The notes under the pieces were generated by a model, which saw only the letters and a list, made by a program, of their open reading frames with translations, searched no databases and was not told the origin of the DNA. Positions 1,688 to 17,832 of a DNA stretch of 24,105 nucleotides are shown one piece after another. The DNA is taken from the IMG/VR virus record IMGVR_UViG_3300022074_000370, positions 1-24,105 of that record, one strand, 5' to 3'. The DNA comes from a virus. Numbering within the stretch: position 1 is the first letter of the stretch; each line of letters starts with the position of its first letter. A program made the position numbers and the translations under genes.

Positions 1688-3280
1688 ATGGAATACTCAA
1701 CACAAGGAACTACAGCAGCAAGTAGATATGAAACCCTTGTAACTAATAGATCAACCTACGATAGAGAAGCTAAAGACTCTTCAAAGCTTACGATACCTAG
1801 CCTGATACCAGAACAGACAACTGGTACTAGAGCTAAGATTAAGACACCTTTCCAAGCAACAGGTAGTCGTGGTGTTAATTCTTTATCAAATAAATTATTA
1901 ATGACTTTGCTGCCACCAAGCACAGCATTTTTTAAATTAGAAATTGATAGTCTTGAAATAAAAAAACAAGGACAAGAAGAACTACAAAGTGAATTAGATA
2001 AAGGACTACGCACTATAGAAAATGCTTTGATGAATCAGATAGAAATATCTAATGACAGAGTTGCTATGTTTGAAGCACTCAAACATTTAGTTGTATCAGG
2101 TAATGTTCTTCTTTACTTAACAGATAAAGGACTAAAGGTATATCCACTATCTAAGTTTGTTTGTAAGCGTGATGAAGTAGGAAATGTATTAGAGATATTA
2201 ACTAAAGAGACAGTACATCCTCAAGCTTTACCTGCTGATTTCTTAGAGCAGATTAAAAAGAAAGAGAACTATGATGCTGTAACAATGAAAGAAGACCTTG
2301 ATATATATACATATATACAAAGGGTTAATGATGATGTCTTCTGGTATCAAGAATGTAAAGGAGAAAAGATACCTAATACAGATGGTAGATCAAAGCTTGA
2401 TGTATCTCCTTGGATTCCTCTAAGGTTTATAAGAGTAGATGGAGAAGATTACGGAAGAGGATATGTAGAAGAATATAGAGGAGACTTAATTAGTCTTGAG
2501 TCTTTGATGCAAGCGATCATTGAAGGTGCTGCTGCTTCTGCTAAAACATTATTCTTAGTAAATCCAAATGGTGTAACAAGAGCAGCAACTTTAGCTAAAG
2601 CACCTAATGGAGCCATTCGAGAAGGTCTTGCTTCTGATATTTCTGTCATGCAAGTAGGTAAGAGTGGAGATTTTTCTGTTGCGTTTAGTGCAATACAAAG
2701 AATAGAAGGTAGGCTTGAGTTTGCTTTTCTTATGGCTAGATCAGTACAACGAGATGCAGAAAGAGTAACAGCAGCAGAGGTTAGCTTAATGGCACAGGAG
2801 CTAGAGAATAGTCTGGGAGGTATCTATAGTATCTTAACTCAAGAGTTTCAACTACCATACCTTAGACGTAGGATGCACCTATTAGTAAGACAAGGTAAAG
2901 TACCAAAGCTGCCTGATGAGTTGGTAAAACCTAAGATAGTAACTGGACTTCAAGGACTTGGTAGAGGTAATGATAGAAACAAACTGATTGAGTTTATCGG
3001 AACTGTCGCTCAAGCTTTAGGACCAGATGTAATGAGACAGTACGTAAACGTGGATGAAGCGGTCAAACGTCTTGCTACCAGTATCGGTATAGATACTGCT
3101 AACCTAGTAAAAACACAAGAGGAGATCCAAGCCGAGCAACAAGCTGCACAACAACAGCAGCTTATTCAAAGTCTTGGACCTGCTGCTTTAGGTTCTAAAT
3201 TATTAGATCCTAAAAATTCTGCACAGGCACAACAATTACAACAACAAGGAGGACAACCTGATGCCAACCAAGAAGTCTAG
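1688..3280 (+). CDS. Portal protein (head-tail connector, gp8-like)
   Basis: A 530-aa T7-type portal, the dodecameric ring at one capsid vertex through which DNA is packaged and ejected and to which the tail binds. Family landmarks are visible. The N-terminus contains 'SRGVNSLSNKLLMTLLPP' (about residues 60-77). The central motif GEDYGRGYVEEYRGDL lies near 252-267. The segment RDAERVTAAEV (about 354-364) is typical of the family. The last 60 residues are rich in Gln and Ala (runs of 3-4 Gln), unlike the compact core. Length matches T7 gp8 (536 aa). No Shine-Dalgarno precedes the ATG, which lies 1 nt after the previous stop, so coupled translation is likely. The last 20 nt overlap the next small gene. 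Confidence 0.96.
   Translation: MEYSTQGTTAASRYETLVTNRSTYDREAKDSSKLTIPSLIPEQTTGTRAKIKTPFQATGSRGVNSLSNKLLMTLLPPSTAFFKLEIDSLEIKKQGQEELQSELDKGLRTIENALMNQIEISNDRVAMFEALKHLVVSGNVLLYLTDKGLKVYPLSKFVCKRDEVGNVLEILTKETVHPQALPADFLEQIKKKENYDAVTMKEDLDIYTYIQRVNDDVFWYQECKGEKIPNTDGRSKLDVSPWIPLRFIRVDGEDYGRGYVEEYRGDLISLESLMQAIIEGAAASAKTLFLVNPNGVTRAATLAKAPNGAIREGLASDISVMQVGKSGDFSVAFSAIQRIEGRLEFAFLMARSVQRDAERVTAAEVSLMAQELENSLGGIYSILTQEFQLPYLRRRMHLLVRQGKVPKLPDELVKPKIVTGLQGLGRGNDRNKLIEFIGTVAQALGPDVMRQYVNVDEAVKRLATSIGIDTANLVKTQEEIQAEQQAAQQQQLIQSLGPAALGSKLLDPKNSAQAQQLQQQGGQPDANQEV
3246..3253 (+). promoter_or_regulatory. Strong ribosome binding site inside the portal gene
   Basis: AAGGAGGA sits 7 nt before the ATG at 3261, within the Gln/Gly-rich end of the portal gene. 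It is one of the best Shine-Dalgarno matches in the window and is the main evidence that the 53-aa overlapping ORF is translated. Confidence 0.75.
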
Positions 3281-6590: not shown

Positions 6591-9041
6591 ATGTCTGTTA
6601 TATCAAGAGCTATACCTACATTATTAAGAGGTATATCGCAATCTTCTGATTCATTGAAGCAACCAGATCATGCTGATATACAAGATAATGCTGACAGCAA
6701 CCCTGTTCTTGGTCTAACAAAGCGAAGTGGCTTTCAATATGTAACAGGTTTATCTTCTTCTACCCTTGGTAATGTTCATATCCAAACTATTAATAGAGAT
6801 GTAAACGAAAGATATGTAGCTGTATTTAGCAATGGAAATGTAAAAGTATATGAGTTAGATGGTACAGAGAAGACAGTAAACAAACCTGATGGTACTGCTT
6901 ACTTGAATACTTCTACACCTAGAAGTGTACTTAAGACAGTTACTATTGCTGACTATACATTTGTGGTTAACACCAGTATTACAGCAGCTATGGACACTAC
7001 TCTTAGTTCTGGTACTGGAACAAAAGCAATTATATTTATTAATCAAGCAACAGCAGATACAACCTACTCTGTAACGATAGATGGGGTAACTGTTACTGAT
7101 AACACTTCTGGAGATTCTACTCTCAGTACAGATACCATAGCTACTGATCTTAAGTCTGGTCTTGATTCTGGTCTATCTGGTTTTACGATTACTAGAAATG
7201 GTCCTGTTTTATATGTAAGAAAAAATGATAATTCTAATTTTTCTATAGATGGTAGTGATACTCAAGGTGATACTAAGATGACAATAATAAAAGATTCAGT
7301 ACAAAGATTTACTGATCTGCCTACTGTTTCTCCTAATGGATATGTTGTAGAAATAAAAGGAGATGACGATACAAACTTTGATAACTACTACGTTAAGTTT
7401 GTCACTAATAATGGTGGTGCATTTGAAGAAGGGCAATGGGAAGAGACAATACAAGCTGGCATCCCTTTTAAATTTGACTATGCCACTATGCCACACGTTT
7501 TAGTAAGACAGGCAGATGGTAATTTTAGATTTGCAAAAGTAGATGGTGATACTTACACCATATCTAGTGTTGACTATACGTTACCTAAATGGGGAGAAAG
7601 AACTGTAGGTGATGTTGTATCTGCACCTGATCCTTCTTTTATTGGTAATAAAATTAATAACGTATTCTTTTTTAGAAACAGACTTGGGTTTCTTGCAGGG
7701 GATAATGTAATTCTTTCTAGGGTATCTGAGTTTTTTAACTTCTTTCCTGAGACAGTTGTATCTGTATTAGATAATGAACCTATTGATGTAGCTGCTTCTC
7801 ATACAAAAGTTGCAATACTAAAGAGTGCAGTAACAATGGGAGAAAAATTAATACTTTTCTCAGAACAAACACAGTTTGTATTAGCAAGTTCAGCAGATAA
7901 CCTTACTCCTAAAACAGCTAACGTACTGGTAATAACAGAATTTGAAAGTAGTTCTGCTGCACAACCTGTACCTTCTGGTAGTTCTATTTATTTCTTAACT
8001 CAAAAAGGTTCTTTTGCAGGTATTAGAGAATATATAATTTCGGGAGAATCACAGATAAAAGATGCAGCAAACATAACAATTCATGTACCAAGACTGATAC
8101 CAACTAATGTTTTTAAAATGGCAGTATCAACCAATCAAGATATTCTTGTCTTGTTAGGTTCAGATAATCCAAACAAGTTATATGTTTACAGATGGTTATA
8201 TGGAGGGGATGGACAGAAAGCTTTAAGTGCTTGGTTTACTTTTACTATCAATAGCAACAGGTCTATATTAAATGTAGATTTTATTGGTACTGATTTGTTT
8301 GCAGTAGTAGAAGAAGCAAACAAAGTTACTTTAGAAAAGATACCTTTTGAAACTGAGTTTACAGAAGCCAATGCTACTTTTGAATATCACTTAGATCATA
8401 AAGTTTCTGAAGCTACTACTGGTGTATCAGTAGCTTATAGCTCTGGTACTGGTCTATCTACCTTTACTGTTCCTTATAGACTAAGAGCCAATATGAATAT
8501 AGTTGGTAGGTATCTTGCTAATGGAGAGACAAGTACTTTTGTAGATGCTCAAGGCAATACAAAAACTCTTACATCAGGTCAGGTTTTAAGCACCTCTAAT
8601 ACTACAGATGGATCTACTTCTACTATTACTGCCACAGGAGACTTTAGAAATAGTAAATTTATTATTGGCGAACCTTATGAAATGCACTACAGGTTTAGTA
8701 AACAGAGACTAACAGAACAAGGTGGTGGTACTCCTGAGTATGTAGGTGGTAGGTTACAGTTGCATTTCTTTTACATTAAATATGAAGATGCTGGATTTTT
8801 TAAAGTAGAAGTAACACCTGAGAATAGAGACACAAGTACTCATAAATTTACTGGTCGTTTACTTGGTTCTGCTTCTGCTGCTATCGGTCAAATAAATCTT
8901 GATACTGGTACGTTTAAAGTACCAATAATGAGTAAGTCTGATAGGGTAGATATAGACATAAAAAACGATACGTTCCTTCCTACACGACTAGCTAGTGCAG
9001 AGTATGAAGGTGTATTCCATATAAGGAGTAGAAGAATTTAG
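6591..9041 (+). CDS. Tail tubular protein B / nozzle (gp12-like)
   Basis: An 816-aa T7 gp12-type nozzle protein (794 aa in T7), which forms the distal tail tube to which fibres attach. Typical features are the N-terminal 'RAIPTLLRGISQ' with a following 'GLTKRSGF' motif, and a beta-rich insertion of Thr/Ser/Gly text around residues 140-225. The central propeller-like part carries 'NNVFFFRNRLGFLAGDNV' in part (FRNRLGFLAGDNVILSR, about 358-374) and 'KSAVTMGEKLILFSEQTQF' in part (EKLILFSEQTQFVL). The C-terminus is GVFHIRSRR. Its TAG overlaps the next GTG by 1 nt. Assignment is secure; host contact by the distal part is inferred from T7. Confidence 0.95.
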   Translation: MSVISRAIPTLLRGISQSSDSLKQPDHADIQDNADSNPVLGLTKRSGFQYVTGLSSSTLGNVHIQTINRDVNERYVAVFSNGNVKVYELDGTEKTVNKPDGTAYLNTSTPRSVLKTVTIADYTFVVNTSITAAMDTTLSSGTGTKAIIFINQATADTTYSVTIDGVTVTDNTSGDSTLSTDTIATDLKSGLDSGLSGFTITRNGPVLYVRKNDNSNFSIDGSDTQGDTKMTIIKDSVQRFTDLPTVSPNGYVVEIKGDDDTNFDNYYVKFVTNNGGAFEEGQWEETIQAGIPFKFDYATMPHVLVRQADGNFRFAKVDGDTYTISSVDYTLPKWGERTVGDVVSAPDPSFIGNKINNVFFFRNRLGFLAGDNVILSRVSEFFNFFPETVVSVLDNEPIDVAASHTKVAILKSAVTMGEKLILFSEQTQFVLASSADNLTPKTANVLVITEFESSSAAQPVPSGSSIYFLTQKGSFAGIREYIISGESQIKDAANITIHVPRLIPTNVFKMAVSTNQDILVLLGSDNPNKLYVYRWLYGGDGQKALSAWFTFTINSNRSILNVDFIGTDLFAVVEEANKVTLEKIPFETEFTEANATFEYHLDHKVSEATTGVSVAYSSGTGLSTFTVPYRLRANMNIVGRYLANGETSTFVDAQGNTKTLTSGQVLSTSNTTDGSTSTITATGDFRNSKFIIGEPYEMHYRFSKQRLTEQGGGTPEYVGGRLQLHFFYIKYEDAGFFKVEVTPENRDTSTHKFTGRLLGSASAAIGQINLDTGTFKVPIMSKSDRVDIDIKNDTFLPTRLASAEYEGVFHIRSRRI

Positions 9042-9493
9042 TGGGGTATTTAAGAAAAGCTAAACTAAAAGACTTTAAATTTGTAGTAAAAAACATGAGG
9101 GTTATGGATAAAATCGAAGCACATTATCAAACAGGCATGACACCAGAAGATGCTCTTAGTTTTACATTTTTAAGCAGTAAAACTAATATGGCTATTGCAG
9201 ATGATGATGACCAACCAATAGGTTTATGTGGAGTACAGACAGATGGTTGTATATGGATGGTTGCTACAGATGAACTGTTTAAAAATAAAAAGTACAGATT
9301 TCAATTAACAAAACAAGGTAGAGATTGGGTTGATAATTTACTGAGAACTTATAATATACTTTATAATTATGTATATGCAGAAAACACTTCTGCTATAAAG
9401 TGGTTAAGAACTCTAGGTTTTACTTTTGTAAAATTACATGAGAGTTATGGTCAACAAAAAAAACCTTTTTACGAATTTCTGAGGATTGCCTAG
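9041..9493 (+). CDS. gp13-like GNAT-fold virion protein
   Basis: A 150-aa protein with an acetyltransferase-like (GNAT) pattern that matches T7 gp13. The C-terminal part 'YNYVYAENTSAIKWLRTLGF' in short form, NTSAIKWLRTLGFTF (about residues 116-130), corresponds to NTSHIRFLKTIGAVF of T7 gp13 as I remember it. The middle 'PIGLCGVQTDGCIWMVATDE' in part (GCIWMVATDELF) matches the beta strands of that fold. T7 gp13 is needed for virion morphogenesis and no acetylation has been shown for it, so enzymatic activity should not be assumed. It starts with GTG overlapping the previous stop (TAGTG); AAGGAG at 9023-9028 lies 12 nt upstream. Confidence 0.85.
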   Translation: MGYLRKAKLKDFKFVVKNMRVMDKIEAHYQTGMTPEDALSFTFLSSKTNMAIADDDDQPIGLCGVQTDGCIWMVATDELFKNKKYRFQLTKQGRDWVDNLLRTYNILYNYVYAENTSAIKWLRTLGFTFVKLHESYGQQKKPFYEFLRIA

Positions 9494-10078
9494 ATGTGTG
9501 TTGGTGCTGCATTAGGACTAAGTACAAAAGCTGTTGGTGGTGCTTTACTTTCTCAAGCTGCTGCTTTTAATATAGGTTTAGGTCTTACTGCGGTTAATGC
9601 TTTTGCTGGTAGGGCTGCTGCAAAATCACAAGCACAACAAACATATCAACAAGGATTATTAGCTAATCAATCAATAGAAGATGATAAAAGACAAAAACAA
9701 TTAGCTTTAGCAGAAAAGAAATCTGAAGAAGAAAAAAGTGCAGCACAAGATATGTTTGCTAAAAACATAGATACATTAGTAGCGAATAGAGCTATAGTGG
9801 CATCAGAACAATCAGGTACAACAGTTAATTTATTATTAATGGACACAGACAGACAAGGTGCTAATTACAGAGAATCAGTAAATCAAAGTATCGCATCAAT
9901 GCAAAGGCAATATTTATTTAATATCCAACAAACAGAATCAGAATACTTAACAAGAAAGAATAAAATACAAAGTAATATCAATGAAGCCTATAACGCAATA
10001 CCAAGTTTAGGATCAACTCTTTTAAATATTGGTACAGGTGCTTTAAGTTCCTACACTAATGCTTTAGCTATTGGGTAA
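9494..10078 (+). CDS. Internal virion protein B (gp14-like)
   Basis: A 194-aa protein corresponding to T7 gp14 (196 aa), the ejected protein thought to form the outer-membrane channel of the trans-envelope conduit. It starts MCVGAALGLSTKAVGGALLS, like the MCWAAAIPIAISG start of T7 gp14, with a weakly hydrophobic N-terminus. A long Gln/Ala/Lys/Glu helical region follows (about residues 45-165), then a Gly/Ala/Ser end. The start is immediately after the previous stop, with GAGGA upstream in the end of gp13. Role is inferred from position, length, start and composition. Confidence 0.85.
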   Translation: MCVGAALGLSTKAVGGALLSQAAAFNIGLGLTAVNAFAGRAAAKSQAQQTYQQGLLANQSIEDDKRQKQLALAEKKSEEEKSAAQDMFAKNIDTLVANRAIVASEQSGTTVNLLLMDTDRQGANYRESVNQSIASMQRQYLFNIQQTESEYLTRKNKIQSNINEAYNAIPSLGSTLLNIGTGALSSYTNALAIG

Positions 10079-12657: not shown

Positions 12658-15600
12658 ATGACAGACTCAAACATTAACAACCTTCTTAATAATGAAGAAG
12701 AAGTTACCAATGAAAATCCACTAATAGATAATGCTACAACAGTAGATGATACTACAACAGTAGATAATACTCTGTTGGCTAATAATAATGTAGAGAATAA
12801 TTTTGAAGAGAATCTAGGAGATAAGCCAGTTAATGTTTTTTCTAAATCAAATCTTTTTAAAAACGATTTAAGCTTTATAGATTTTGATACTGAATACAAT
12901 TTAAACAATTCAATAAATAATTTTTATTTAAATGATACTGATACTTATGAATTTCAAAGTGATGAATTTAATTTTGGTAGATCATTATTTGAAAATTTAA
13001 CAGAAGATGCACCCGAAGGAGTTATACCAATATCTGATGGGATGCTTCAATATTTAAGATTTAATAACTTTTTTGATAAATTTAAAAATGATAATACTCC
13101 TATAAAATTACCTAAAGACAGAATTGAAATAAATAAATTATTTAAGAATGAAACAGGTTATTCGTTTCAAGAGATGTTAAATAATGACATACCTAAAGAT
13201 GTTATAGAAACACCAGAGTTTCAAGGAAGTTTAAATAATATAATTAAATTTTATGAAGACAAAGGTTTTACTGTACCCATAGTTGAAAGAACAAACCTAA
13301 CTCAATTTAATCAAACATTAAAAGGTTTTGGAATAGAACTAACAGGTGGTCTTAGTCTTGATTTTATAACTGCACCTTTACTAAAACTAGGACCATACGG
13401 AGCTTTAGCTTACGTTGGTATAAATTCTTTTGGTGGTGCATATTTAAATTATTTGTCTCAAGAAGGAAGAATGGGTCAAGCTGGCTTCCTTGGTCAAAAA
13501 GATAAATTAAAGTGGGGTGAATTATTTACTTCTACTGCTTTGCAAACAATACCTTATGGAGTAACGGATAAAGGAATAAGAGGTATTAGTAAATCATTTT
13601 TGTTTGGTGGTACTATTGGTGGTGGTGAAACAACAGTTAGAACTTTAATAGACGAAAATAGATTTCCAAATCTGCAAGAATATTTATTTTCAATCGGTCT
13701 TGGTGGTACGTTTGCTGCTAGTTTAAAAGGAGGTTTAGAATTATTTAATGGTCTTCTTGTTAAATTTAAAGGTAAGTCAGCGACAGAAGTTAGTAAACTT
13801 ATAAGTGATAATGAAATAGAAGGTTTAAATAAATTCTTTAGTGATACTCAAATTTTACAAAAACAATTAGAACAACAACCTCAAGGCAATATTAAAGGAG
13901 AAGATGGAGATGAAGTAGTTAATCTTATTACTTCAATGATAGATAATATTACTAAAAGAAGTACGTCTAAAGATGGCACACTTAAATTTAAAAACAAACA
14001 AGACGAAAAATTATTTAATGAATTAACTGAAAAGAGAAAATTGTTATTAGATCAAAAAGATATTATTAAAAATACAGAAAAAATAAATGAAACATCAAAA
14101 ACTAAAGATGTAGTAAGAACCTATGTAATGCCACAACAATTTAAAAATATGAAAGTTTCTTATGGTAGAGCTAAGATTCTTTTTAAATCAGATTTTGATA
14201 GGATTGCTTGGTCTTTAAGATTTGGCAAAAAGAAATATCCACAAAATGAAGGGTTAATGGTGAGGTCACTTATAGATCAAGGGTTTACAGAAAAAGAAGT
14301 AAGAGAGCATGGAGCAAAATTACATCAGAAAATAAAAAATATGGTTATTGAAAAGACAGGAACATCACAAGCTGGTAATAATACTATAGGTTTAGAGTTG
14401 ACTATACCTGCATCTAAAGGATTTATTACAGCTAAAACAAAAGTTAAACAAAAAACAAAGACAACAGTAACAACTGATGACTTTGCTTTAGGAATGAAGG
14501 TAAAAGCATCTGATAGAAATAACATTGGTACAGTTGTTGCAGTAAATAAAGATAGTATTACAGTTCAATTTGTTTCTAAACAAGGAACTGCATTAAGTAA
14601 AAAATTTAAACGAAATCAATTAACACCATTAAATAAAAAAAGAATAAAAACAGAAGAAATAGGAGAAACAATAAAAAGTACAGAGAATGGTGAAGAAGTA
14701 ACATCTAAACAAAATTTAGGTGATCGTAATAAAAATCCACAACAAGTAGAATTTATAAAGAATTTAAAACCTAAACAACAACAACAGATTGAACAGATAA
14801 TAGCAATTTTAAAAGATGTAGATATATTTACAGGAAGTAAAAGTCAAGTTCAAACTAAACTAGAAGGTCTAGGAATGTTTGATGAAGGTGTACTTACACT
14901 ATCTAATACAAAACAAATAAAAGAATATGCTGGCATTTATGCAAAATTATACGATCTTGTACCAAGTGATTCTTTAAATTATGCACTAAGTCAAGTTATT
15001 GTTTTAGCTTCTGACAACGTAGCTAATGTAAATCAAAAATTAATTTCAGCAATTAAAAATAAAAATCCAAGTGATATAAGAATATTTGTTGATAAATTAG
15101 CTGAAGCTTTTTTAGAAGTAGAAGAGTGGTTAACACTAGGTATTCCTCTAAGAACACAAGCAGCTAGAACTGTTACTTCATTCAAGATGAAACCAGAATC
15201 AGGAATTACTGGTAAGACAGTAGAAGAAGTAATTAATATGACTCCTAACCAAAAGAAAACTTGGGAGATGATACAACCTGATATAGAAGGAAGTATTGAA
15301 GAAAAGCTAAGACTTAACCAAGAATTTAAAAGCAATTTTCTAGCACAAGTAAAAATAGCAGAAGAGACAGGAGACTATAGCGAATTAATAAGACTAACAA
15401 ATCAAATATCACAGACTGAAGGAGTGGTAGAAAAAATTGTACCTTTGGTTCAAGCAAATAAATTTGATGTTAAGAAAGGAATTAGTAATTTAATGAGAAC
15501 TTATAACGAAATTGGTATTAATGCTTTGTTATCTGCACCTACAACACAAGAGATTAATTTGTTTTCTGGGATAGCTATGAGTTATTTAAAGTCAGCTAAC

Positions 15601-17832
15601 CTTTTAATTGGTTCAAGCAATCCAGCAGAATTAAAAGCAGCTATAAAACATCTCTTTGCCTTACATCAGAATTTTAATTTTGCTAGAAAAGCATGGAAAA
15701 GATCATGGGATATGGAAGATAACTTTATTAACCTTGGTAATGTCAAAGGTGAAGTAAGTCAAAGATATATGATTTCGTCAGATAGTAGTTTCTTTCCTTT
15801 AGTTGCTTACGACAAAGTTGGAAAATTTATAAGACTACCAAGTAGATTAATGATGAGTAATGATGCGTTAATACAAGCACCAAATTTAATTGCAGCAGCT
15901 ACTTACGAAGCATTTATGGAAGGATATTCAAAAGGATTAAAAGGAGATGAATTAGATAATTTTATTAAAGGTCATACAGACGGAATTATTACTTACATAT
16001 TAAACAACTCTAAAGGTGATTTATTAGTTAATGGTAAACCTAGTGATGTTGCAAATCGAATTTTATCAAGAGCAAGAGAATTTGCGAAGTCAATTACTTT
16101 TACTCAAGATATAAGAACAGAAGATGCTTTCGGTTGGAGTGCAAACAAAATTAATAATATTGCTGCTACAAATCCTTATATGAGATTTTTATTTAAATTT
16201 ACAAAAGCACCTACAAATATAATTAAAGAAGTTAATAGATATGTACCTTTAGTTAATACACCTGTTATTAAAACATACCCAGATGGTACAACTGAAAACT
16301 TAAATCTTGTAAATAGATTGTTATTAAATGAGATGAAAAATGATTTGCTTAGTACAGATCCAATAGTGCGTAAAAATGCTTTAGGTCAAATAAGAACATC
16401 AATGGCTTTCGGTACAATAATTGCTGGTATGGCTATAGGAGATGCTTTAACACCAGATAGTTCAATAGATCAAGACCCACCCAAAGTTATATTGTCAGGT
16501 GGTGGTCCTAATTGGAGGACAAAAGAAGGTGCTGCTATGTTTATAACTATGCTTAAAGATGGTTGGCTTCCTTACTCTAGAGGTGTTTTGCAATATACAG
16601 AAGATGGAGACATTGAATATAAAAATGGTCAACCTGTTTATAGATGGAGTTCTTACGAAGGATTACCAGAACCTATTGTTGGATTTATCAGGTTAATGGT
16701 TGATTTCTCTAAAAGTTCTCCGTTTGTAAGTGAAAAAGAATTTGGTGAATTTACTTGTAATTGGAATTGTGCAGTTGGTCGTAATATGTTTAATAGAAGT
16801 TTTACTTCACAAATAGATGAAGCAATGAAAATATTAAGTTCTATACCCGAAGTTGGTAAAAGTGATGATCCCGAAGATGATGTTAACTATAAAGGTAAAA
16901 AATTTACAGAATTTGTAGGAAATCAAATAGCTGGTTCAACAGTTCCTTATTCAAGTTTTTTAAATAAACTACATAGATTACCTGCTGATTTATTAGTGGC
17001 TTTAGGTTATACACAAGAACAAGCATTAGAATTAAAAAATTCAAAAGGAGATTATAGTGGGTTAAAATGGTTTATGAAACCTGATACAAAGACTAGAGCA
17101 GGTGATAAGGCTAATCAAAACAGAGATGTTAATGACGAAAACTTTAATCGAAATAATATGTGGATGAAAATTTTAGATAATATCTGGAATAAATCTAAAG
17201 AAAAAGCACCAATGATTTTAGGTGGTAACTTACCTAATCAAGTAGAACATATTACTAATGAACCAATACTTTATCCAGATAAAGGTATAGTTCCTGATTT
17301 GTTTTCTTTATCAAGACATAGCACAAGTAAAAATATAAAAATACATAGTGCTTATAAATTAATAGGTAAAATATTACCAGAGCCACCACAAATAATAAGA
17401 GGATCAAAATTTAAAGGTTTAAATAGTGACCAATTTGAACCAAAAAAATTAAACAAATATGAATATAATGTATTAAAAGTAATTGTAAATACTCAAAAAT
17501 TAAAGATGGGAGGAAAAGAATTAAATGTAAAAGAAGCTATAAATACATACTTAGATGGTCAATATTTACCGCAACATTACGCATATCACAAATCACAAAT
17601 AGAACAATTTGGTTTAGATTCTGAAGAAGGAAAAATAGCACAAGAAGAAATTTATCAACAACTACAAAAAATTAATAATAAATATATAACAAATGGCATT
17701 TTAATGTTTACAAAAGATTATATTGGCGAAAAAGATTTTAATGCTAGGGTAGAAGCAAAGAGTAGAATTAAAACTAATTACTTTAATAACATGATTAATT
17801 CAATGAATAACATGAATTTAGGTACTTTTTAA
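12658..17832 (+). CDS. Internal virion protein D (gp16-like), very large
   Basis: A 1,724-aa ejected core protein, much longer than T7 gp16 (1,318 aa), which crosses the cytoplasmic membrane at infection. Residues 1-100 are Asn/Asp/Glu-rich and probably disordered. A Gly-rich hydrophobic region (about 225-365) may contact membrane. A small beta-barrel-like segment, rather KOW/SH3-like, lies at 611-658. The C-terminal half has the most family-like text: FTQDIRTEDAFG (about 1147), NPYMRFLFKFTKAPTN (about 1172), a hydrophobic helix GTIIAGMAIGDALTP (about 1254-1268) and DGWLPYSRG (about 1301). These recall the membrane-linked segment of T7 gp16 relatives and of large polyvalent phage proteins (LPD38-like, tentative). 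I see no transglycosylase motif at the N-terminus, where T7 gp16 has one. The gene is AT-rich even for this genome and starts 2 nt after gp15. Confidence 0.87.
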   Translation: MTDSNINNLLNNEEEVTNENPLIDNATTVDDTTTVDNTLLANNNVENNFEENLGDKPVNVFSKSNLFKNDLSFIDFDTEYNLNNSINNFYLNDTDTYEFQSDEFNFGRSLFENLTEDAPEGVIPISDGMLQYLRFNNFFDKFKNDNTPIKLPKDRIEINKLFKNETGYSFQEMLNNDIPKDVIETPEFQGSLNNIIKFYEDKGFTVPIVERTNLTQFNQTLKGFGIELTGGLSLDFITAPLLKLGPYGALAYVGINSFGGAYLNYLSQEGRMGQAGFLGQKDKLKWGELFTSTALQTIPYGVTDKGIRGISKSFLFGGTIGGGETTVRTLIDENRFPNLQEYLFSIGLGGTFAASLKGGLELFNGLLVKFKGKSATEVSKLISDNEIEGLNKFFSDTQILQKQLEQQPQGNIKGEDGDEVVNLITSMIDNITKRSTSKDGTLKFKNKQDEKLFNELTEKRKLLLDQKDIIKNTEKINETSKTKDVVRTYVMPQQFKNMKVSYGRAKILFKSDFDRIAWSLRFGKKKYPQNEGLMVRSLIDQGFTEKEVREHGAKLHQKIKNMVIEKTGTSQAGNNTIGLELTIPASKGFITAKTKVKQKTKTTVTTDDFALGMKVKASDRNNIGTVVAVNKDSITVQFVSKQGTALSKKFKRNQLTPLNKKRIKTEEIGETIKSTENGEEVTSKQNLGDRNKNPQQVEFIKNLKPKQQQQIEQIIAILKDVDIFTGSKSQVQTKLEGLGMFDEGVLTLSNTKQIKEYAGIYAKLYDLVPSDSLNYALSQVIVLASDNVANVNQKLISAIKNKNPSDIRIFVDKLAEAFLEVEEWLTLGIPLRTQAARTVTSFKMKPESGITGKTVEEVINMTPNQKKTWEMIQPDIEGSIEEKLRLNQEFKSNFLAQVKIAEETGDYSELIRLTNQISQTEGVVEKIVPLVQANKFDVKKGISNLMRTYNEIGINALLSAPTTQEINLFSGIAMSYLKSANLLIGSSNPAELKAAIKHLFALHQNFNFARKAWKRSWDMEDNFINLGNVKGEVSQRYMISSDSSFFPLVAYDKVGKFIRLPSRLMMSNDALIQAPNLIAAATYEAFMEGYSKGLKGDELDNFIKGHTDGIITYILNNSKGDLLVNGKPSDVANRILSRAREFAKSITFTQDIRTEDAFGWSANKINNIAATNPYMRFLFKFTKAPTNIIKEVNRYVPLVNTPVIKTYPDGTTENLNLVNRLLLNEMKNDLLSTDPIVRKNALGQIRTSMAFGTIIAGMAIGDALTPDSSIDQDPPKVILSGGGPNWRTKEGAAMFITMLKDGWLPYSRGVLQYTEDGDIEYKNGQPVYRWSSYEGLPEPIVGFIRLMVDFSKSSPFVSEKEFGEFTCNWNCAVGRNMFNRSFTSQIDEAMKILSSIPEVGKSDDPEDDVNYKGKKFTEFVGNQIAGSTVPYSSFLNKLHRLPADLLVALGYTQEQALELKNSKGDYSGLKWFMKPDTKTRAGDKANQNRDVNDENFNRNNMWMKILDNIWNKSKEKAPMILGGNLPNQVEHITNEPILYPDKGIVPDLFSLSRHSTSKNIKIHSAYKLIGKILPEPPQIIRGSKFKGLNSDQFEPKKLNKYEYNVLKVIVNTQKLKMGGKELNVKEAINTYLDGQYLPQHYAYHKSQIEQFGLDSEEGKIAQEEIYQQLQKINNKYITNGILMFTKDYIGEKDFNARVEAKSRIKTNYFNNMINSMNNMNLGTF
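12734..12765 (+). repeat. 14-bp direct repeat, 18-nt period, at the gp16 N-terminus
   Basis: CTACAACAGTAGAT occurs at 12734-12747 and 12752-12765. It encodes two near-copies of a TTVD[DN]T hexapeptide in the disordered start of the protein. Confidence 0.9.

Follow-up and report, generated by a model that had tools for sequence, protein, structure and literature searches.

In the window, by which we mean the whole stretch of 24,105 nt that was analysed, we found a small domain with a predicted SH3-like fold inside a giant gp16-like protein. Nucleic acids and other proteins are frequent ligands of this fold. The barrel is an optional insert in this protein. We tentatively read it as an accessory SH3-like barrel that is tethered by unstructured linkers, gained and lost as a unit, and possibly DNA-gripping during genome entry, a reading to which we give somewhat less than even confidence. 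A single open frame on the plus strand (12658-17832) spans the whole barrel segment and has a product of 1724 aa. The features of the window that bear on this protein are the following.

1688-3280: portal/connector, T7-like structural block
6591-9041: nozzle gp12, T7-like structural block
9041-9493: phrog_308 internal virion protein in the gp13 place (PHROG match 6e-35)
9494-10078: gp14-like protein (matched by PHROG internal virion models; Pfam 22.4 bits, under the cut-off of 27)
Between the gp14-like gene and the 12658-17832 ORF: 857-aa ORF in the gp15 place, without family match
12658-17832, plus strand: gene of the gp16-like giant protein, probable ejection protein/internal virion protein D (1724 aa; profile match and gene order)
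13324-13767, plus strand: hydrophobic, Gly-rich region, residues 223-370, putatively in the place of T7 gp16 TMH I (Kyte-Doolittle)
14119-14382, plus strand: small conserved domain upstream of the insert, residues 488-575 (pLDDT mostly 78-90)
14413-14487, plus strand: upstream linker, residues 586-610, Lys/Thr-rich (pLDDT below 50 at 589-607; absent or strongly shortened in relatives without the insert)
14488-14631, plus strand: predicted SH3-like barrel, residues 611-658 (two AlphaFold2 models, Foldseek and VIA-align, weak SH3-type Pfam matches)
14632-14727, plus strand: downstream linker, residues 659-690, starting with NKKRIK (pLDDT below 50 at 660-700)
14725-17829, plus strand: conserved C-terminal part (C-part), residues 690-1724
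3' of the gp16-like gene: tail-fibre gene with T7 N-domain

By profile comparison the window protein is a predicted homologue of gp16/internal virion protein D. When hhalign was run against a profile of T7 gp16 and eight marine internal virion D proteins, it gave a probability of 99.8 and an E value of 9.1e-30, with the alignment to the gp16 profile shown from window residue 809 to about 1415. The printed T7 row aligns poorly, so the link to gp16 is carried mainly by the marine proteins. The T7-like structural block of the window also had the gene order gp12-gp13-gp14-gp15-gp16-gp17; the product in the gp13 place showed weak acetyltransferase family matches besides phrog_308. An N-terminal lytic transglycosylase is a feature of T7 gp16, though not universal in the family, and no match to one was found in the window protein with the sequence models of Pfam and NCBIfam at E up to 1. 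Sequence searches of solved structures returned no relative of the whole gp16-like family and none of the barrel family. Residues about 126-200 were absent from about half of 50 long relatives and residues 426-475 from about three quarters. Three relatives (L044, L047, L060) kept the C-part of the family and differed in the region that elsewhere forms the conserved 488-575 domain, two of them (L044 and L047) with an unrelated-looking stretch in its place, so that the N-terminal part of the gp16-like ORF looks mosaic.

The first-pass annotation had proposed a small barrel at 14491-14631. This span encodes residues 612-658 and is right at its end; the barrel starts one codon earlier, with L611 at 14488. 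AlphaFold2 on residues 597-668 predicted five strands (614-617, 623-629, 634-639, 645-650 and 655-657) and a short helical turn at 652-654 just before the last strand, with a pLDDT of 82-88 in the core and 42-59 at the ends, a mean of 75 and a pTM of 0.60. The same five strands were recovered in a second job on residues 486-780 (45 sequences, four with the insert), where the barrel had a pLDDT of about 76-82, falling to 66 in the first ten-residue block touching it; outside the barrel and the upstream domain this model was poor and its overall mean pLDDT was only 61. The segment is predicted to be a small five-strand barrel with a helical turn, of the SH3-like fold class and neither disordered nor helical, in support of the barrel that had been proposed. 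Chance or disorder as the source of the strand pattern was rejected on the grounds of the two models and of conservation. It remains conceivable, at a very low probability, that there is no barrel and that a chance strand pattern was over-read: all five models of the 597-668 job drew on six sequences, of which five resemble each other closely, but the second model agrees, remote modules retain the pattern, and several SH3-type Pfam models match independently, if weakly. Across four modules, three of which are close relatives, 22 of 53 columns were invariant, and the loop D619 R620 N622 G624 was invariant across nine modules from four places; most invariant barrel residues look structural or fall in one loop. 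An entry of the viral structure library (D6PFL6, 173 aa) was 100% identical over 72 residues (window 14446-14661), so UniProt already contains the barrel sequence, unnamed in the library tables.

Fold searches returned SH3-like barrels as best matches with both tools. The top Foldseek matches in the PDB were NdhS (E 0.0098), MutS2, the Spt5 KOW domain, Ssl0352 and ribosomal KOW proteins, while the Tudor domain at the C-terminus of UvrD (7egt_B) ranked 27th (E 0.08, 33% identity over 51 columns). No Foldseek match reached 0.001, and myosin and GST-like chains were interspersed. VIA-align gave Z values of up to 8.0 (NdhS and PHF1 Tudor) and 7.7 for NusG (1m1g); according to the tool, a Z of at most 8.0 may reflect a mere common arrangement. 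From the search with the 486-780 model, in which GST-like chains with an rmsd above 20 came top, the barrel rows alone were used. The predicted structures support the SH3-like fold class, with no single family standing out among the matches listed.

The narrower proposal of a KOW or Tudor-type barrel therefore holds for the likeness of fold and not for family membership, since the segment stays below the cut-off of KOW and of every other Pfam family. Its best Pfam score was for the ProQ C-terminal domain ProQ_C (PF17516; 22.3 bits over 27 residues against a cut-off of 23.3), which we rejected because it is below the cut-off and was matched by the window only, in one of eight modules. KOW (PF00467 and the Spt5 models) was rejected as well, with KOW2_Spt5 at 12.6 bits in the window against a cut-off of 28.9; MSSS, DUF2171 and C5_CUB also matched the window barrel weakly. 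The module of L090 showed weak MSSS and KOW matches (KOW 13.6 bits, cut-off 22.3), and four site-B modules (see below) matched DUF4926 weakly. At E 0.001 the window record gave no match to the PcrA/UvrD Tudor model (PF21196); the same search was positive in 8 of 14 control genomes. In NCBIfam the sole weak match of the 70-aa segment was a GreA-fusion model (16.4 bits against 714), and in PHROGs the barrel segment had one weak match only (phrog_7871, E 0.034).

A scan with six peptide patterns yielded 70 metagenomic loci. To these, tblastn added a single cultured phage, P-SCSP2, whose match was near-full. After removal of identical proteins the 71 ORFs gave 64 distinct ones, which were aligned with the window protein in 65 rows (alignment A3 holds 32 of the 65, and A11 and A12 leave out L044, L047 and L060). 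At the position of the window's insert, site A, only 4 of the 60 rows spanning both flanks held the insert (window, L057, L031 and L002). Between the shared flanks the window protein had 131 aa and the other rows at most 55, mostly 49-55. The protein of L001 is the same as that of L002, and L073 and L075 carried the barrel in partial ORFs. Presence and absence in the alignment, together with the profile homology, support the earlier proposal of a segment inserted into a gp16-like protein. It had also been proposed to explain part of about 400 extra residues; the excess over T7 gp16 is indeed 406 (1724 minus 1318), but only 48 aa of it are barrel, and the insertion as a whole adds a net of about 79 aa.

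The profile search suggested in the first-pass annotation found the same module in gp16-like proteins of other phages: a profile of four site-A modules matched L065, L068, L052, L058 and L050 at E 9e-20 to 5e-18. These barrels, 52-59% identical to the site-A barrel, lie at site B, the linker before the conserved 488-575 domain, i.e. on the opposite side of that domain from the window's insert. At site B, 5 of 58 covering rows carried the barrel, with L084 as a further carrier, and no row had two copies. Scans with wider alignments found the barrel also in the distant gp16-like proteins of group C (L086, L087, L090, L091 and L092), of which L087 has a T7-like gene order; a profile of group C and the cultured phage HTVC031P matched the gp16 family with a probability of 93.9 and E 1.6e-7. 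The HTVC031P protein is 50.6% identical to that of L086, and its linker, judged by eye, is continuous without a barrel. A further barrel was found in a 1187-aa protein on a 70.6-kb contig (L098), with a relative of 1170 aa (L116). Compared with the gp16 family this protein gave a probability of 1.0 and E 0.052 over 37 columns; homology is not established, and L098 and L116 were therefore kept unplaced. Neither PHROG nor Pfam models matched the protein, and a search of the phage collection gave no match either. Both loci belong to phage contigs of 70-77 kb, with 58.8% GC in the loci sampled.

Altogether 20 contigs carried the module (site A 6 plus the window, site B 6, site C 5, unplaced protein 2), and in all 20 the scan-confirmed modules were confined to giant proteins, 18 of them gp16-like. 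None of the 14 gp16-like proteins of cultured phages matched the module profile (best E 0.66); these are 14 of 23 distinct records matched, with T7 gp16 outside the scan. For stand-alone or cellular relatives, tblastn against the phage collection at E up to 10 with the modules of the window, L065, L116 and L090 found none (best E 0.8), and neither did the scan of genome contigs. The window module as sole scan query gave no matches, and that of L098 its own contig only. As these searches used short patterns or single-sequence queries, the absence of stand-alone relatives is weak evidence.

Phages of the window's group gain and lose the barrel as one unit. In one pair, L058 carries the barrel and L051 lacks it. 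Downstream of the module the two share 95.6% identity (4176 nt) and upstream 95.5% (763 nt), and between these flanks they have 224 and 8 nt, a net difference of 216 nt in frame. In a midpoint-rooted FastTree of the C-part, carriers at site B were interleaved with non-carriers, and site-A carriers formed one clade. The window and L065 share 52% identity in the module and 40% in the C-part, while the window and L057 share 50% and 73%. Such discordant identities place the module out of step with its host protein, and both exchange between lineages and uneven rates are compatible with them. Foreign base composition was considered and rejected (27.1% GC in the window module, 28.6% in its gene; 50.4 and 60.9% in L098).

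Nei-Gojobori dN/dS was well below 1, at 0.14-0.28, for six close module pairs, which is a rough estimate from about 50 codons each; the pairs outside this range are window-L057 (0.40, dS 0.89) and L098-L116, for which dS was saturated. The C-part gave 0.22-0.29 (three pairs) and the linker after the module 0.44 (one pair). These values bear on the possibility that the phages merely tolerate the barrel as a passenger, which would be a small domain able to fold, recombining into linkers without a specific task. Its position in unstructured, variable linkers and its absence from close relatives would fit such a passenger, but the C-part-like dN/dS together with the invariant loop suggests a kept function, even if folding alone also lowers dN/dS, and the modules occur in giant proteins only. 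We consider a passenger quite improbable.

The gp16-like giant protein of marine T7-like phages probably enters the cell ahead of the DNA, ejection with the DNA being suggested by family and gene order. In the T7 model, as given in the accessible part of PMC8954989, TMH I (243-410) and TMH II (1119-1290) cross the inner membrane, and the intervening gp16-C (411-1118) is cytoplasmic, binds DNA without sequence preference and controls transcription-dependent entry. The window protein showed Kyte-Doolittle hydrophobic segments at 223-255, 342-360, 767-785, 966-986 and 1241-1267. The module of groups A, B and C is placed between the first hydrophobic region and the conserved C-part; in L116 the sole segment above the hydrophobicity threshold is 29-48. 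Because of the T7 model, the barrel would be placed in the cytoplasm. In the mechanism that we propose, the gp16-like protein would leave the virion ahead of the DNA, cross the tail and refold in the envelope; the barrel would then be on the cytoplasmic side, close to the DNA exit, as an extra binding module, where it may grip the incoming AT-rich DNA together with the stretch of basic residues found behind it in most carriers.

The charge of the module is partly consistent with such a grip. The window barrel has a net charge of +7, the six other members of sites A and B that were measured have +3 or +4, and the genomes of groups A-C have 31-34% GC. The AT-hook motif is an RGRP core in a basic context. 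In each of the five other distinct site-A ORFs (L057, L031, L002, L073 and L075) the barrel is immediately followed by an AT-hook-like GRRGRPKK. An RGRP-type core was found in 6 of 575 distinct ORFs of at least 150 aa, five of them barrel proteins, in a count that treats near-identical ORFs as separate and with a pattern chosen after it had been sighted. An AT-hook in the window itself was rejected, as the RGRP core is absent and the tail is NKKRIK. The basic tail was not significant (P 0.09 for the window and about 0.28-0.30 for site-B tails; L068, L086, L090 and L116 are left out of this measurement). Positive charge is also not universal, with -5 for the barrel of L098 and K+R against D+E counts of 8 and 7 in the module of L086 and 7 and 9 in that of L116. 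The absence of the barrel from close relatives, the low scores of the structural matches and the mostly structural look of the invariant residues also count against the DNA grip. The first-pass annotation had suggested that the barrel may bind either nucleic acid or a host factor while DNA enters; on balance our analysis somewhat favours DNA over a host protein as the putative ligand.

A host protein, e.g. RNA polymerase, onto which the barrel docks is possible but rather doubtful. The barrel shares its fold class with an RNA-polymerase-binding Tudor (7egt_B) and the NusG KOW (1m1g), and PMC5397179 names RNA polymerase or S10 as the binding partner of such domains. Mutants of T7 gp16-C make DNA entry independent of transcription, as the available text of PMC8954989 reports, which would suit a docking role, as would the invariant loop. 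In an exploratory comparison of fibre types in the site-B group, 5 of 5 carriers and 1 of 4 non-carriers were nearer to one type, which is to be read in the light of nine loci with a readable fibre, a loose assignment of L050 and kinship being ignored. Against docking, the window record lacks a match to the PcrA/UvrD Tudor model, the Foldseek E value for 7egt_B is just 0.08, and the fold serves many ligands. A more specific version, which we regard as unlikely, makes the barrel a mobile docking module that is swapped among linkers and couples entry to the host RNA polymerase or to a DNA-bound factor; if true, it would represent a host-specific grip where DNA enters the cell.

The barrel might instead act among phage or envelope parts, in core packing, in channel assembly or by altering the face seen by superinfection-exclusion proteins, which appears to us improbable to a similar degree. 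In P22, changes in gp16 and gp20, both among the most variable virion genes, escape the inner-membrane protein SieA (available part of PMC10883804), and in PhiM1 domain insertions alter the contacts that ejection proteins make with one another (PMC11440229). Quick gain and loss would also fit an arms race. With such linkers, however, a fixed position of the barrel within the core is less probable, and identity between the gp15-like neighbours of a carrier and of a non-carrier reaches 92% (L052-L067).

Few virion parts are as poorly understood as the ejection proteins. The presence or absence of the module among close relatives and its recurrence at several sites suggest that they swap non-enzymatic modules, beyond the swaps and insertions of peptidoglycan hydrolases in the cited papers. 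The L058/L051 pair, with about 95.5% identical flanks, offers a natural with/without comparison for the region before gp16-C in DNA entry. We found no report of an SH3, KOW or Tudor barrel in a gp16-like protein in the open-licence literature; the only paper there that contains both 'SH3-like' and 'ejection protein', PMC10172136, applies 'SH3-like' to portal wing loops. Two points are new: a gp16-like protein can have the barrel or lack it, and the barrel turns up at several sites in such proteins.

Among known systems, T7 gp16 and the pelagiphage internal virion D proteins resemble the window protein in the profile homology over about 809-1415, in the place before the tail fibre and in the hydrophobic regions that flank a large middle part; unlike the window, none of the 14 cultured gp16-like proteins from T7-like isolates reached the barrel profile. 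No FinO-type domain was among those listed for the window protein, which sets it apart from ProQ. The PcrA/UvrD Tudor and the NusG, Spt5 and MutS2 KOW domains share with the barrel an SH3-like fold of five strands and a size of about 50 aa, but they belong to different host proteins and show no family-level sequence match. The tetrameric ejection protein of PhiM1, as described in the accessible part of PMC11440229, likewise has a domain inserted in a gp16-like protein; that insert is endolysin-like and enzyme-like, whereas here a non-catalytic-looking small barrel is present or absent among close relatives. In K1E and K1-5, modules are exchanged between ejection proteins and a lysozyme domain is found in the gp15 homologue (accessible part of PMC8954989). 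There a peptidoglycan hydrolase has shifted between genes, whereas here a putative binding domain has moved among the linkers of one protein family.
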